From: Candidatus Uhrbacteria bacterium
Lineage (GTDB): Bacteria; Patescibacteriota; Patescibacteriia; UBA9934; GWF2-40-263
Length of the DNA: 40,429 bases
NCBI GenBank assembly: GCA_903843045.1
Contig: CAIMOJ010000029.1
Span: 1-40,429 of the forward strand
Reading direction: 5' to 3'
Shown in pieces: positions 1,655-30,257 of the stretch. A program made the translations under genes and the position numbers. The notes under the pieces are model-generated. The model saw only the letters and a list, made by a program, of their open reading frames with translations. It was not told where the DNA came from and ran no database searches. Within the stretch, counting starts at the first letter, position 1. Each line of letters begins with the position of its first letter.

Positions 1655-2788
1655 CTAGTACGGAAACGCGATGCTCGGATCTTTCTGCAGGTCTCCTCCC
1701 TCCGCGAAGTGCTCTATTTCGGAATCGTTGATGGTGAGGAAGAACGTGCTCACGAACCGCATGTAGCTCAGCGTGTCTCCCGGGAGTGTGTAATCTTTCG
1801 TCGCGTCGAGGTAGACGACCGCGCCGCTCGTGATCGCTCCGATCGAGCCGGCCGGGGGGACTTCGGTCGTGATCCCGTCGCCGACGGCGTAGTTTCCCCA
1901 GAAGGTGTCCGGGACGTCGATGACGCGCTTGGCCCAGTTTGTGCCGTAGAGCGCCCGCGCGATTCCTTCGGTCGTGACCCAGCGGAGCACTCCGCCCGGC
2001 TCGACCGCGTACACCTTCGGGTCCGTCGTGATCTTGACCAGCCAGGTTCCCGGGCGCACGGTCACGTTCGGCCCGAGCGCATAGGACGCGAGGTTCGCCG
2101 CGTCGATGTAGGCGATATCGTCGAAGTTCTGATACCAGGTCTTGAAGACGGTCTCGGAAGGGAAGGCGTGGCGCATCCCATGGTCGTCGACGACGTACAC
2201 GGCCTCGTCGACGGTCGTCGCGGGGTTGCCGTCGTCCACGAGCTTCACGAGCATTCCGCGCTGGGGGGTCGAGGATTCCACGGAGGGGGTCGAGGTGGTC
2301 GAAGGGGTCGGCTCCGGAACGACGACAGGTTCCGCGATGCCCGCGGCGGCAATCGCGTCCAGGCTCCAGAGCTCATTCTCAATGCAGGTGACGCGGACGT
2401 AGCGATAGGACGTTGTCCCGGAATATGGGACGGTCGTTTCCGTCGAATAGATGGCAAACGTCCCCGTGGTGTTCTGAAGGACGTTCGAGTCCGCGTCCAT
2501 CAGCTCGACCCGATAGGCCGCGCCGTACTGAAGGATCCTGTACGTCAGCGTCAGGTCGCCCGTTCCTTCCTCGTCCTTCCCCATGTCGAGCGTGACCGCG
2601 GCAAGCGCGTCCTGGAAATCCGCGTACGTGCCGTCGGGGGCGCCGACCGCGTTTTGCGGCTGGTAGACGGACGCGGGCGTATCGATCGCGACGTCCGCGT
2701 ATTGGTCGGAGACGGCCGCGGCTCGGACCGTCGCCGGAGAGAGACTGAGGAGGAGCAGTCCGAGGACGAGAATGTTCGCAATGCGCAT
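1655..2788 (-). CDS. Secreted protein: N-terminal discoidin-like region plus LVKLVDDGNPATTVDEAVYVVDD repeat domain
   Basis: 377 aa, signal peptide MRIANILVLGLLLLSLSPATVRA; motif resembles secreted Patescibacteria proteins (recalled, not searched). Confidence 0.7.
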   Translation of the reverse strand: MRIANILVLGLLLLSLSPATVRAAAVSDQYADVAIDTPASVYQPQNAVGAPDGTYADFQDALAAVTLDMGKDEEGTGDLTLTYRILQYGAAYRVELMDADSNVLQNTTGTFAIYSTETTVPYSGTTSYRYVRVTCIENELWSLDAIAAAGIAEPVVVPEPTPSTTSTPSVESSTPQRGMLVKLVDDGNPATTVDEAVYVVDDHGMRHAFPSETVFKTWYQNFDDIAYIDAANLASYALGPNVTVRPGTWLVKITTDPKVYAVEPGGVLRWVTTEGIARALYGTNWAKRVIDVPDTFWGNYAVGDGITTEVPPAGSIGAITSGAVVYLDATKDYTLPGDTLSYMRFVSTFFLTINDSEIEHFAEGGDLQKDPSIAFPY

Positions 2789-2793
2789 AGGGG

Positions 2794-2869
2794 ATTGGTC
2801 ACGTTGGTAAATTGGGAAGATTGGTAATGACCAATTTGACCAATTTGACCATTTTACCAGATTACCATA
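2794..2869. repeat. AT-rich tandem/inverted repeat cluster between divergent genes
   Basis: ttggtaaattggg...attggtaat opposite gaccaatttgaccaatttgaccattttaccagattaccat. Confidence 0.55.
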
Positions 2870-2949
2870 CCAGAAACGAGCGCATTCGTCATCTGTATTC
2901 ATGGACAAACCGCGCGATTTCGCGTACGGTCTCACTAAGGAGAAACAGC

Positions 2950-3378
2950 ATGTACCCAGAAGAAACCGTTTTCGACCGCGAGGCAAAGCGATATGCCTCC
3001 CACCATACGGAGGCGTGGAGGACCGGACTGATCGGCCTGATCGACGGCGTGTCGCATCCGTCGGCGGCATACGATCTGGCTGTCGCGTTCGAGAACGCCG
3101 CCCCGCTTCTCGCGGGAGTCGGCGAGCCCGTCTGGACCGGCACCGAGGACTGGGGACACCTTGCCAGGGCGGGCCGGGGCACTTCGCAGGGACTCCTCGA
3201 GCGGGCCGTCCTCCGCGGCATCGACGCGTTCTTCGCCGGCGTCCCCGAAGGCTCGCCACTCAGCGAAAAGATCCTCGACCTTTCGATCGAGCTCGGCGGG
3301 ATCACGAACGAGACCACGGTCTTCCTCGCCATCCACGACACGATCCGAAGGCGGTTCTATTCCGAGGAACAGGCCTGA
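2950..3378 (+). CDS. Hypothetical protein
   Basis: 142 aa, SD AAGGAG before ATG, terminator downstream (gaccc..cggtcgtttttt). Confidence 0.7.
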   Translation: MYPEETVFDREAKRYASHHTEAWRTGLIGLIDGVSHPSAAYDLAVAFENAAPLLAGVGEPVWTGTEDWGHLARAGRGTSQGLLERAVLRGIDAFFAGVPEGSPLSEKILDLSIELGGITNETTVFLAIHDTIRRRFYSEEQA

Positions 3379-25884: not shown

Positions 25885-28140
25885 CTAGTGCCTCGCGCTC
25901 GCACCGCTCGTCACGTCCGACAGATTCACGCTCAGCAAATTCGACACGCCGTCGTCGCCCATGGTGACGCCGTACAGTACGTCGGCCTTTTCCATCGTCG
26001 CGCGGTTGTGGGTGATGACGATGAACTGGGTGAGCTTGGCGAGCTCCTCGAGGATGCCGGCGAAGCGGAAGGTGTTGGCCTCGTCGAGGGCGGCGTCGAC
26101 CTCGTCGAGGACCACGAACGGGCCCGGGTTTACGGCCATGATCGCGGAGACCAGGGCGATGGAGGTCAGGGCCCGCTCGCCTCCGGAGAGAAGGTTGAGC
26201 GCCTTGAGCTTTTTGCCCGGCGGCGTGGCCTGGATGTCGATGCCGACGATGCGGTCCTCGCGCTCGCGGATGCGGAGGGCGATCTTCTCGGTCTCGCCGA
26301 GCTGCGCCACGGCCTCATCGAGGTCGTCGCCTTCCGCGTCCTTCTTTACCTCCTCGCGCGACATCTTCACGAGCGAGCAGCTTCCGCCGCCGAACAGCAT
26401 CTTGAAGTACTTTTCGAACTCGTCGTTGATCTTCTTGAACGCCTTCTCGGACTGCTTGTGAATTTCTTCGTCGAGCTCGTCGATGATCTTCTCCGTGTCC
26501 GCCACGGCCGAGCGCAGGTCGCTCACCTGGCCGTCGAGGAACGAGAACCGCGCGTTCGTTTCCTCGAATTCCTTCACGATCTCGGGGTCGATCCCGCCGA
26601 TGAGCTCGAGCTTGTAGCGCAGGCGCTGGATCTCCGGATAGGTCGCGGCGGTGTCGACCTTGATCTCGACGCGGCGCCCGCGGATGTCGCCGGCGAGCTC
26701 TTTTAATTGCTCGTCCATGTCGCGGCCGAGGTTCGCCTGGCGTTCCTCGAGGCGGGCGAGGTCGATGGCGACGGCGTTGCGCTGGTTCTCCACGAGGTGG
26801 ATCGCCTGCTGCTTCTGGCGCAGGTCGCGCTGGAGGTCGAACAGCTCGGTGCGCACCTGCTTCTCGGTGACCGCGTGCGTCTTCATGCTCTCCTCGAGCG
26901 TCTTCAGCTCCGTCTCGGTCCCGGCGATCATCTCGCCAAGCTCGACCACGCGCGCGATCATCTTCGGGTCCGACACCACGTCCTCCGGGCTCGGCCGCTG
27001 GAGACGGGAGACGAGCGTCGTCGACGCGCTCAGCATCTCGTCGATCTTCGCGTACACCGCGTCGAGGTCCTTCATCTCGCGCAGCCCCTTGAGCCCGAGC
27101 GTCACCCCTTCGATCCCCTCGATGATCTTCGTCAGCGGCAGCGGCGCCCAGTTGCTCTGCGCGCGCACCTTTGCCATCTCGATCTCCTTCTGCACCTTGA
27201 ACTGCTCGTCGCGGAATCCCGATCGCTTCCGCTGCATGTCGTTGTACTGCTTCTGGATGACAATGAGCCCGTCGTCCTGCACGTCCTTGTCCTTCTCCTC
27301 GCGTTCCATCGCCGTGACCTTTTCGACGAGAGCGGCGACCTCGGACGTCTCCTTGTTCACCTGAATGTCGAGCCGCGAGAACTTCTCCTTCACTCCCACG
27401 AGCTCGTCGGTGAGCTGCCACCACATCGTCCCGAAGTATCCCTGCTCCAGATCGCGCAGTTTCTTCTCGACCTCCTCGCGTTCCTGGAGTCGTGACACCT
27501 GGCGCTTGAGCGACTTGAGGCGCGGCTCGATCTCGGTGAGGAGCATCTCGACCTCGGCCAGGTTCTCGTACGTTCGCTTGAGCTTCAGCATCGACTCATG
27601 GCGCTTGATCTGAAACTGCTTCACGCCGGTCGCGTCGTCAAAGAACGCCTTGCGCTCCTCGGGGGAGGACACGAGGATATGGTCGACCATCCCCTGGCCG
27701 ATGACCGAGTACGATCGTTGTCCTACGTTGGCCTGCGCGAGGAGGAGCTGGATGTCGGAAAGCCGCGCGGCCGAGCCGTTCAGGAGATACTCGGAATTGC
27801 CGTCGCGGTACAGCCGGCGGGTGACGGTCACCTCCGAGAAGTCGATCGGCATCGTGTGGTCCTCGTTGTTGAAGGTCATCGACACCTCCGCGAAACCGGA
27901 GCGCCCGCGCCCCTCGGATCCCGAAAAAATGACGTCCTGCGACTCCTTCCCGCGCAAAAGTTTCAACGACTGCTCGCCAAGCACCCACCGGATCGCGTCC
28001 GAAAAGTTCGATTTTCCCGACCCGTTCGGTCCGACGACCGCGGTAATGGGGGATACCCCGCCCTTTGGAGGAAGGAACGACAGCGTCGTTTTCTGGGCGA
28101 ATGTCTTGAATCCTTGAAGTTCGAGTTTGAGGAGAAACAT
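25885..28140 (-). CDS. smc: Short SMC-like ATPase
   Basis: Walker A VGPNGSGKSN, signature LLSGGERALTSIAL, Walker B FVVLDEVDAALDEAN; 751 aa from MFLLKLELQGFKTF. Confidence 0.88.
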   Translation of the reverse strand: MFLLKLELQGFKTFAQKTTLSFLPPKGGVSPITAVVGPNGSGKSNFSDAIRWVLGEQSLKLLRGKESQDVIFSGSEGRGRSGFAEVSMTFNNEDHTMPIDFSEVTVTRRLYRDGNSEYLLNGSAARLSDIQLLLAQANVGQRSYSVIGQGMVDHILVSSPEERKAFFDDATGVKQFQIKRHESMLKLKRTYENLAEVEMLLTEIEPRLKSLKRQVSRLQEREEVEKKLRDLEQGYFGTMWWQLTDELVGVKEKFSRLDIQVNKETSEVAALVEKVTAMEREEKDKDVQDDGLIVIQKQYNDMQRKRSGFRDEQFKVQKEIEMAKVRAQSNWAPLPLTKIIEGIEGVTLGLKGLREMKDLDAVYAKIDEMLSASTTLVSRLQRPSPEDVVSDPKMIARVVELGEMIAGTETELKTLEESMKTHAVTEKQVRTELFDLQRDLRQKQQAIHLVENQRNAVAIDLARLEERQANLGRDMDEQLKELAGDIRGRRVEIKVDTAATYPEIQRLRYKLELIGGIDPEIVKEFEETNARFSFLDGQVSDLRSAVADTEKIIDELDEEIHKQSEKAFKKINDEFEKYFKMLFGGGSCSLVKMSREEVKKDAEGDDLDEAVAQLGETEKIALRIREREDRIVGIDIQATPPGKKLKALNLLSGGERALTSIALVSAIMAVNPGPFVVLDEVDAALDEANTFRFAGILEELAKLTQFIVITHNRATMEKADVLYGVTMGDDGVSNLLSVNLSDVTSGASARH

Positions 28141-28185
28141 AGGGGCGGGAGGGGATACGATAACGGGGAAATTATAGCACATGCG

Positions 28186-28214
28186 ATTGACAGGGAATGC
28201 ACCCCATGGTCTTA
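28186..28214 (+). promoter_or_regulatory. Candidate promoter of the leader RNA before the MFS gene
   Basis: TTGACA-N17-TCTTAT. Confidence 0.55.
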
Positions 28215-28217
28215 TGG

Positions 28218-28380
28218 GGAGGTATGAACAACGCGTGTCGCGTCAACCAGGGTTACGCAATTCTCTCGTCCGATTGGACGATGGAGAAGATTTCGTATTC
28301 CCGAGTCGGCGCGACGGTGGCGAGGTAACCCCTCGTCATCGCAAGGCCGGCCCGGGAATTACCCCGGGCCGGTTTTGTTT
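28218..28380 (+). ncRNA. Structured leader RNA ending in a terminator, before the MFS transporter (riboswitch-like)
   Basis: Nested stems GTCGCG/CGCGAC, GGG/CCC, TACG/CGTA, TTCTC-TCGTCC-GATT-GGACGA-TG-GAGAA; then terminator 28347-28372. Confidence 0.6.
28347..28380 (+). terminator. Intrinsic terminator of the MFS leader
   Basis: ccggcccggg-aattac-cccgggccgg-ttttgttt. Confidence 0.85.
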
Positions 28381-28390
28381 CGGAGTAACC

Positions 28391-29572
28391 GTGACCTGTA
28401 TGAAATCGACCACGACGTACTACCTCTTCACCTTCCTCTTCCGCCTTGGGCTCGGCGCGACCATGTCGCTGTACACGCCGTTCCTGGCCGACATCGGGCT
28501 GACGTTCGCGCAGATTGCGACGGTCAACGCGTGCTACTGGATCGCGACGCTTTCCTTCGAGATCCCCACCGGGATGCTCGCCGACGGGCGCGGGCGCGGA
28601 TGGTCCGTGATGATGGGATCGCTCTTTTACGCGGCCGGCGGGTTCTGGTACTCGATGGCGCACGGGTTCTGGCACGCGGTTAGCGCCGAGCTGATCATCG
28701 CGGTCGGCGCGGCCTTCATCTCGGGCGCGCTGTCGTCGTGGATCGTGGACGCACCGGATCGCAAAGAGCCCGTGTCGCACGTGTTCGGGACCGCGACGGC
28801 GTTCGCGGGGCTCGCGACGATTCTCGGGACGCTGCTCGGCGTCCATCTCGCCGTCCCGTTCGGCCGCGGCGTCGCATTCGCCATCGACGGCGCGTTCTCG
28901 CTGTTCGCGTTCGTCGTCGCGGCGAGCCTGATGCAAGGAAAGGAGCTCGAGCACCCGATGGGAGAGTTCGACGCGCTCGGTCGCGCGTTCCGCCATCTTA
29001 AGTCGTCGCCGACGATGCTCTGGGCCGCCGCGATGCAGGCGTCGTACGGAATCTTCCAGACGTTCAACATGTTCTGGGCCCCGCTGCTGCTGAAGCATCT
29101 CGACATGAACGGCGTCGGCTACACCTGGATCGGGATGTACGCGGTCGTGGCGGCATCGGGCTTCCTCGTTCGCACCAGGTTCGGCCAGAAGGACGGCACC
29201 GGCGCGGGAATGGCGCTCGCCCTCGCGTTCGCCGCCGCGCCGATGCTCGCCTTCGCCATCCTCCCGCCGCTCGCCGCCTGGTTCGTCCTCCTCGCCGTCC
29301 ACGAGCTCGGCCGCGGCGCCTTCGCCCCGTTCGCCGACGCGTACGTCCACGAGCGCATCGAGTCGGGCTACCGCGCCACGTTCTCCTCGCTCCAGTCGTT
29401 CGCGCAGGAGGCCGGCATGGCCGCGACCCTCGTGGTCCTCGCCTTCGCGATGCGCCCGTTCGACAACGACCCGCAGGCGATCGTGTGGATGTGGGCGATC
29501 GCGGGCGCCGCGTCGCTCGGGGTGACGGCGGTGTTGTGGGTGAGGAGGCCGAGACTGCCGGATGCCCGTTAG
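28391..29572 (+). CDS. MFS transporter
   Basis: Multiple TM segments, LADGRGRG loop; GTG start (SD GGAG-TAACC-GTG) or ATG at 28400. Confidence 0.85.
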   Translation: MTCMKSTTTYYLFTFLFRLGLGATMSLYTPFLADIGLTFAQIATVNACYWIATLSFEIPTGMLADGRGRGWSVMMGSLFYAAGGFWYSMAHGFWHAVSAELIIAVGAAFISGALSSWIVDAPDRKEPVSHVFGTATAFAGLATILGTLLGVHLAVPFGRGVAFAIDGAFSLFAFVVAASLMQGKELEHPMGEFDALGRAFRHLKSSPTMLWAAAMQASYGIFQTFNMFWAPLLLKHLDMNGVGYTWIGMYAVVAASGFLVRTRFGQKDGTGAGMALALAFAAAPMLAFAILPPLAAWFVLLAVHELGRGAFAPFADAYVHERIESGYRATFSSLQSFAQEAGMAATLVVLAFAMRPFDNDPQAIVWMWAIAGAASLGVTAVLWVRRPRLPDAR

Positions 29573-29753: not shown

Positions 29754-30257
29754 ATGGGAAATCGCAAGGTGGAGGTTGTCAGAGATGTGTTGCTCGGACT
29801 GTATGAGACAGCCGACCATATCGGATCGCAGTACCATCAGCTAGGAAAGACATACCCGCAGATTCTAGCGATTCGCGCGGTCAAGGAGCGTCGTCGACAG
29901 ATGGGCCTGGTCATGGCAATGAAGCGTCGCAACCTCATCGATACGCGCAAGACCGCCGCGGGACTCGAGATCGCGCTCACCGCGAAAGGTTCCATGCGCG
30001 CCGTCCGCGAGGCCGTAAAAGGGAACCGTACCAAGCTTCCGACCGGTCAGTCCTGCATGGTCCTCTTCGACATCCCCGAAAGTGCGAGCGCCTCGCGCAA
30101 CGCGTTCCGTTACTTCCTAAAGGACGCCGGATTCAAGATGGTCCAGCTCAGCGTCTGGGAAAGCCCGTTCGACGTCTTCCGCGACGTGCTCAATTTCGTC
30201 ACCGCCGCCGCGATCGACAAGTGGGTGACGGTCGTGGACGCAAGGGTGAGGACGTAG
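29754..30257 (+). CDS. PaaX/Cas2-like-fold regulator with N-terminal winged helix
   Basis: CMVLFDIPESASASRNAFRYFLKDAGFKMVQLSVWESPFD; no SD. Confidence 0.72.
   Translation: MGNRKVEVVRDVLLGLYETADHIGSQYHQLGKTYPQILAIRAVKERRRQMGLVMAMKRRNLIDTRKTAAGLEIALTAKGSMRAVREAVKGNRTKLPTGQSCMVLFDIPESASASRNAFRYFLKDAGFKMVQLSVWESPFDVFRDVLNFVTAAAIDKWVTVVDARVRT

Follow-up and report, generated by a model that had tools for sequence, protein, structure and literature searches.

A predicted near-leaderless upstream reading frame in a probable ribosome-mediated attenuator ahead of a drug-efflux-pump-like gene of Candidatus Uhrbacteria

The leader of an MFS transporter gene in the window, the 40,429-nt stretch of Candidatus Uhrbacteria DNA analysed here, holds an upstream open reading frame (uORF) and four RNA segments with alternative pairings (regions 1 to 4), and is probably a ribosome-mediated transcription attenuator of a drug-efflux pump, like bmrCD or mef(E). 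Comparison of homologous leaders shows helices 1:2, 2:3, 3:4, and P2, the frame of the uORF, the spacing between promoter and ATG, and the link to one MFS family; we infer translation of the uORF, the transcription start, the direction of the switch and, as its usual trigger, a protein-synthesis inhibitor exported by the pump. The features of the locus, in window positions, are:

28187–28215, + strand: sigma-70-type promoter, TTGACA-17-TCTTAT, read from the sequence
28224–28328, + strand: uORF of 34 codons, predicted to be almost leaderless, with the putative translation MNNACRVNQGYAILSSDWTMEKISYSRVGATVAR followed by a stop, assigned from the open frame and the ATG position
28236–28247, + strand: region 1, the anti-antiterminator 5′ arm (uORF codons 5–8), pairing with 28305–28316, assigned from permutation and covariation
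28261–28288, + strand: inner hairpin of the leader stem, TTCTCTCGTCC GATT GGACGATGGAGAA, inside the uORF, assigned from the fold
28297–28310, + strand: region 2, the antiterminator arm ATTCCCGAGTCGGC, pairing with 28346–28359
28316–28340, + strand: hairpin P2, with the uORF stop TAA (28326–28328) at the loop, assigned from the fold and a homologous helix
28345–28380, + strand: intrinsic terminator (regions 3:4) with T tract, assigned from the fold and covariation
28346–28359, + strand: region 3, covering the 5′ arm of the terminator and the first part of its loop and pairing with region 2, assigned from pairing
28391–29572, + strand: MFS transporter (MFS_1), distantly Tet(40)/NorA-like, with a GTG start and GGAG at 28382–28385, assigned from a profile

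The preliminary description had read this locus as a transcription-attenuating riboswitch, and the promoter, stems, terminator, and start signals that it named are all present. Specifically, TTGACA at 28187–28192 is followed by a 17-nt spacer and TCTTAT at 28210–28215; the stems GTCGCG/CGCGAC, GGG/CCC, and TACG/CGTA and the TTCTC...GAGAA hairpin all occur in the minimum-free-energy (MFE) structure of the leader; the terminator has a stem of at least 10 bp (28347–28356 with 28363–28372) followed by TTTTGTTT; and GGAG (28382–28385) precedes GTG 28391, a start supported by the ATG found at that place in the close relative G001 (Candidatus Uhrbacteria). The proposed pairing between leader and terminator arm is real and longer than first described, with ATTCCCGAGTCGGC (28297–28310) and GCCGGCCCGGGAAT (28346–28359) forming 13 of 14 pairs. 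The MFE of the leader (28220–28383) is −88.6 kcal/mol, compared with −58.5 kcal/mol for shuffles (z −6.8), and z is −4.1 when the terminator is left out. P2 is the apical hairpin within the antiterminator fold. A simple consensus scan listed neither the promoter, because only −10 boxes with A as their second letter pass it, nor the terminator, whose hairpin its rule missed.

The product of the downstream gene is best read as a predicted drug-efflux-pump-like exporter. Its profile finds NorA in the PDB and, in NCBIfam, matches Tet(40)/TetA(P) weakly and far below the cut-offs, a distant similarity. Directly past the gene lies a reading frame (29754–30257, + strand) for a 167-aa protein with a PaaX_M (Cas2-like) domain. 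Divergent from the leader, on the − strand at 25885–28182, lies a gene for an SMC-like protein of only 765 aa, both ends of which are spanned by SMC_N; usual SMC proteins have ~1,150 aa, and the coiled coil of this one seems to be shortened.

Homologues were fetched by similarity of the MFS protein alone, and the upstream DNA was read afterwards. At the threshold used, the MFS protein has a match in 31 of the 43 genomes from the same family. The genome collection gave 36 distinct named loci, from Candidatus Uhrbacteria and from records labelled Parcubacteria group, Patescibacteria group, or bacterium, and the same leader precedes the MFS gene at 36 of 36, with the arms of a few leaders assigned by hand. 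The parts in common are a promoter, an ATG at the 5′ end, an ORF of 26–39 codons that contains an arm of the UUUCYCGGGU type, a hairpin spanning the ORF stop or close to it, and a ACCCGGGAAA-type terminator. Apart from that of G001, the homologous MFS proteins are about 31–54% identical to the window protein (best segment). DNA similarity to relatives gave a whole-leader match in G001 only, the other short matches being mostly chance or pieces of terminators. The G001 leader is 86% identical and its stems change compensatorily (for example, GGTGGCGAGG...CCTCGTCATC versus GATGGCGAGG...CCTCGCCATC); both sides of the outer leader stem differ between the two.

A covariance-model search of 381 genomes of the class placed the element in several families, and five further leaders from this search completed a set of 42. 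All inspected matches in the class at E <= 1e-6 lie ahead of an MFS gene. The best match of all is the leader of L096 (G050), where the MFS gene at 2501–3158 is apparently split in two. Weak matches (E about 1e-5 to 1e-2) were, among those examined, mostly plain terminators and were left out of the counts; the exceptions were L146 and L147, which have a clear uORF, arms, and an MFS gene. A draw of 380 genomes from the phylum added two matches only (~3e-5), both plain terminators. As far as this model reaches, the element is tied to a single MFS family of the class. An independent small RNA (for example, 6S-like) was considered and rejected, since at every locus retrieved through the MFS protein the leader accompanies the MFS gene.

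The uORF, overlooked in the preliminary description, fills the leader. At the window locus its ATG lies 8 nt past the −10 box, and its mRNA is therefore predicted to be almost leaderless; the usual distance from a −10 box to a transcription start site places the predicted start at ~28222, ~2 nt ahead of the AUG. Among the 42 leaders, the best −10 hexamer ends 8–9 nt ahead of the uORF ATG in 34, the ATG is at the corresponding place in all, and position −1 is always T. No stop interrupts the first 25 codons in 42 of 42 leaders, compared with 3 of 42 and 26 of 42 for the other two frames, a count that is partly built in because the ATGs were picked by eye as short-ORF starts; the fixed position after the promoter is not built in. 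Substitutions are spread evenly over the three codon positions (78/63/67) with no third-position excess, so that it is the open frame and the ATG that speak for coding; translation of the uORF is putative, in a frame favoured by the comparison. One homologue (L054/L165, G016) has region 2, a P2-like hairpin, and the terminator, and has no clear 5′-terminal uORF.

The uORF overlaps regions 1 and 2, and the regions follow one another in the order 1, 2, 3, 4 of the classical trp attenuator. In particular, helix 1:2, the shield, joins uORF codons 3–8 (uORF nt about 8–22) to a segment that overlaps the antiterminator arm, starting inside the 3′ end of region 2, and competes with helix 2:3; helix 2:3 in turn shares the 5′ arm of the terminator, so that the antiterminator excludes the terminator, an exclusion that covariation supports. 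Examples of 1:2 are ACATGTGGACC/GGTCCACATGT in L087, CTGTTACCAG/CTGGTAGCAG in L092, and a pairing of 14 nt in L063. A pseudoknot of 1:2 with a shortened 2:3 is possible.

Covariation among the homologous MFS leaders, which the preliminary description had named among the checks to make, supports helices 1:2, 2:3, and 3:4. Across 26 sequences, the antiterminator 2:3 (in most, UUUCYCGGGU with ACCCGGGAAA) is paired in 92% of cells and the terminator helix 3:4 in 94%. The P2-homologous helix, at or near the uORF stop, is 89% paired, with two-sided changes at 6 of 7 pairs. Helix 1:2 has two-sided changes in at least one sequence at 10 of 12 pairs and is only 58% paired in a fixed-column alignment, because its register shifts between sequences. 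We therefore also compared, free of register, the best self-pairing of each leader with its pairing to other species. The own-leader sum for 1:2 is 732.8, compared with a mean of 536.5 (sd 18.6, maximum 603.4) in 5000 between-species permutations, and that for 2:3 is 944.8, compared with a mean of 810.5 (sd 18.4, maximum 879.0) in 5000 permutations. In a minority of leaders, 1:2 pairing is no better than shuffled. The covariation score is 0.328 for the OFF fold (shuffles, 0.181) and 0.291 for the ON fold (shuffles, 0.150), with slid controls far lower for both; since the sequences are related, all these shuffle and permutation figures are descriptive and not exact probabilities.

The helices bear directly on the riboswitch reading, according to which a metabolite-binding RNA would act through an expression platform of this same terminator/antiterminator kind. 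The genuine switch, the long leader stem, and the transporter gene downstream fit that reading; against it stand a uORF present in 42 of 42 homologues at the predicted transcript 5′ end and overlapping both competing arms, a helix 1:2 whose sequence varies freely while its pairing is maintained, and the absence of a conserved unpaired core, the conserved columns being the ATG, the arms, P2, and the terminator. We consider a riboswitch very unlikely: the attenuator with its terminator/antiterminator switch is upheld by covariation, and the riboswitch part of the earlier proposal is not supported, given the uORF present in all homologues used and no aptamer-like core seen. The leader had not been recognised as a known class, and indeed no Rfam 15 family matches it at gathering score, which also speaks against a riboswitch; at permissive thresholds the matches have E of 0.2–10 and are irrelevant. 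The MFS substrate had been suggested to point to the ligand; with the element read as ribosome-mediated, that substrate need not bind the RNA.

In the proposed ribosome-mediated mechanism, RNA polymerase would start ~2 nt ahead of the uORF AUG, and a ribosome could therefore load on the 5′ end. A freely translating ribosome would cross region 2 and stop in or near P2; with region 2 covered, region 3 would pair with region 4 and transcription would terminate ahead of the MFS gene (default OFF). A ribosome held in the first codons (about 1–8) would instead cover region 1 and block the 1:2 stem; region 2, left free, would pair with the emerging region 3, the terminator would be pre-empted, and the pump would be made (ON).

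Equilibrium folding qualifies this scheme. For window RNA without the terminator 3′ arm, the antiterminator has a value of 0.78 without a ribosome and 0.87 with a ribosome at the start; a sharp change is seen in only about 7 of 37 leaders, and most, the window included, have no clean ON/OFF contrast. Given this preference for the antiterminator without a ribosome, an OFF state of the untranslated leader is putative. On this modelling, either timing during transcription would matter, or the untranslated leader would also be ON, with OFF arising only from a translating ribosome; both alternatives are ribosome-mediated attenuation.

The leader is likely to respond to ribosomes being slowed in general over the first codons and not to a single amino acid or metabolite: relative to the uORF, region 2 is found in each of the three frames (23/9/5), substitutions are even, and no amino acid is universally repeated. 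The layout 1:2/2:3/3:4 is identical to that of a trp/his-type attenuator, in which ribosomes would stall in the uORF for want of an amino acid that the MFS protein would import, and early codons are rich in Asn, His, Tyr, and Lys. Patescibacteria are mostly auxotrophs. However, codons 2–12 have no amino acid common to all leaders (Asn occurs at least twice in 24 of 42, others rarely twice), a search of the 42 leaders found no regulatory codon run common to the homologues, the codon bias follows the A-rich, G-poor start of the uORF (A 0.34, G 0.16 in nt 4–36), and the MFS relatives found are exporters; an amino-acid attenuator is thus unlikely. The excess of NAY codons (Asn, His, Tyr) at the uORF start is not fully accounted for by composition, and the A-rich, G-poor start may serve leaderless initiation.

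The uORF peptide varies among homologues, as does its frame relative to region 2, which indicates that what is conserved is the pairing of the RNA and not a stalling peptide. A drug-specific arrest peptide, in which nascent chain and bound drug would stall the ribosome at a fixed site (compare the ErmK and MefE leader peptides), would find a basis in the M-N-x-x-C-[YHF] start and the F-[PS]-G near the end that recur in one lineage. The RNA accounts for both motifs, M-N-x-x-C lying in region 1, which pairs, and F-[PS]-G in region 2, which occurs in all three frames, and third-position bias is absent; we rejected this interpretation of the motifs, and regard an arrest peptide as very improbable.

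As a more speculative extension of the ribosome-mediated reading, which we offer tentatively and hold to be somewhat doubtful, the 5′-terminal AUG itself could be the detector in a lineage-old drug sensor of Patescibacteria: ribosomes frozen in the course of initiation or right after it on the leaderless ORF would cover region 1 directly, and any inhibitor that stalls ribosomes at the start codon would turn the pump on, with no particular peptide needed. Tetracycline and retapamulin each arrest ribosomes on the start codon of the toiL uORF (PMC12121999); such a hold would, in the present leader, cover region 1.

Similar layouts and logic are established experimentally elsewhere. In bmrB-bmrCD of Bacillus subtilis, the leader ORF likewise overlaps a predicted anti-antiterminator and antiterminator ahead of a multidrug transporter, leader translation is required, and several ribosome inhibitors induce; there the transporter is of the ABC type, the leader ORF has 53 codons, the promoter lies ~70 bp upstream, and the terminator is inside the ORF (PMC4191407). 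In the Uhrbacteria leader, by contrast, the predicted 5′ end is where the ORF starts, and the terminator lies beyond the ORF; the likeness drawn here concerns layout and logic. Mef(E) is an MFS pump. In the mega element of Streptococcus pneumoniae, the efflux-pump operon mef(E)/mel is under macrolide-induced transcriptional attenuation via a leader peptide, a logic shown experimentally; its leader peptide, MTASMRLR, has 8 codons and a ribosome-binding site (PMC4335068). Leaders of the Uhrbacteria type, in contrast, have 26–39 codons, a variable peptide, and no space for a Shine-Dalgarno site.

Attenuators of trp and his operons use a four-region logic, with a 1:2 shield, a 2:3 antiterminator, a 3:4 terminator, and a leader ORF in the switch region. 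The Uhrbacteria leader has this four-region logic with a leader ORF, and differs in having no regulatory codon run and an MFS transporter downstream. Mycobacterial Cys-rich uORFs, in bacteria where leaderless mRNAs are common, have been proposed as attenuators, and are likewise small ORFs at the transcript start that would control downstream genes via ribosome behaviour; they have a Cys theme and metabolic genes, whereas the present leaders have no amino-acid theme and a drug-pump-like gene (PMC4633059). A literature search for Patescibacteria with a leader peptide or with ribosome-mediated or translation-coupled attenuation found no report. The kind of attenuator is already known; judged from the literature searched, what appears new is a form of it that is near-leaderless, does not depend on the peptide, and goes with a single pump family across Patescibacteria.

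Patescibacteria account for a large uncultured share of the diversity of bacteria, and there is demand for inducible expression systems that work in them (PMC11665869). The element predicts that a pump is regulated in response to ribosome inhibition even in small-genome Patescibacteria, and names arms, codons, and inducers that can be tested. Its near-leaderless design, in which the shield helix starts within the first few codons, would show how a switch can work with neither a Shine-Dalgarno site nor a stall peptide. If the proposed reading is true, these bacteria have a built-in sensor of blocked protein synthesis; if the AUG is itself the detector, that sensor could answer compounds made by host or neighbouring bacteria, for example ones resembling tetracycline or pleuromutilins.
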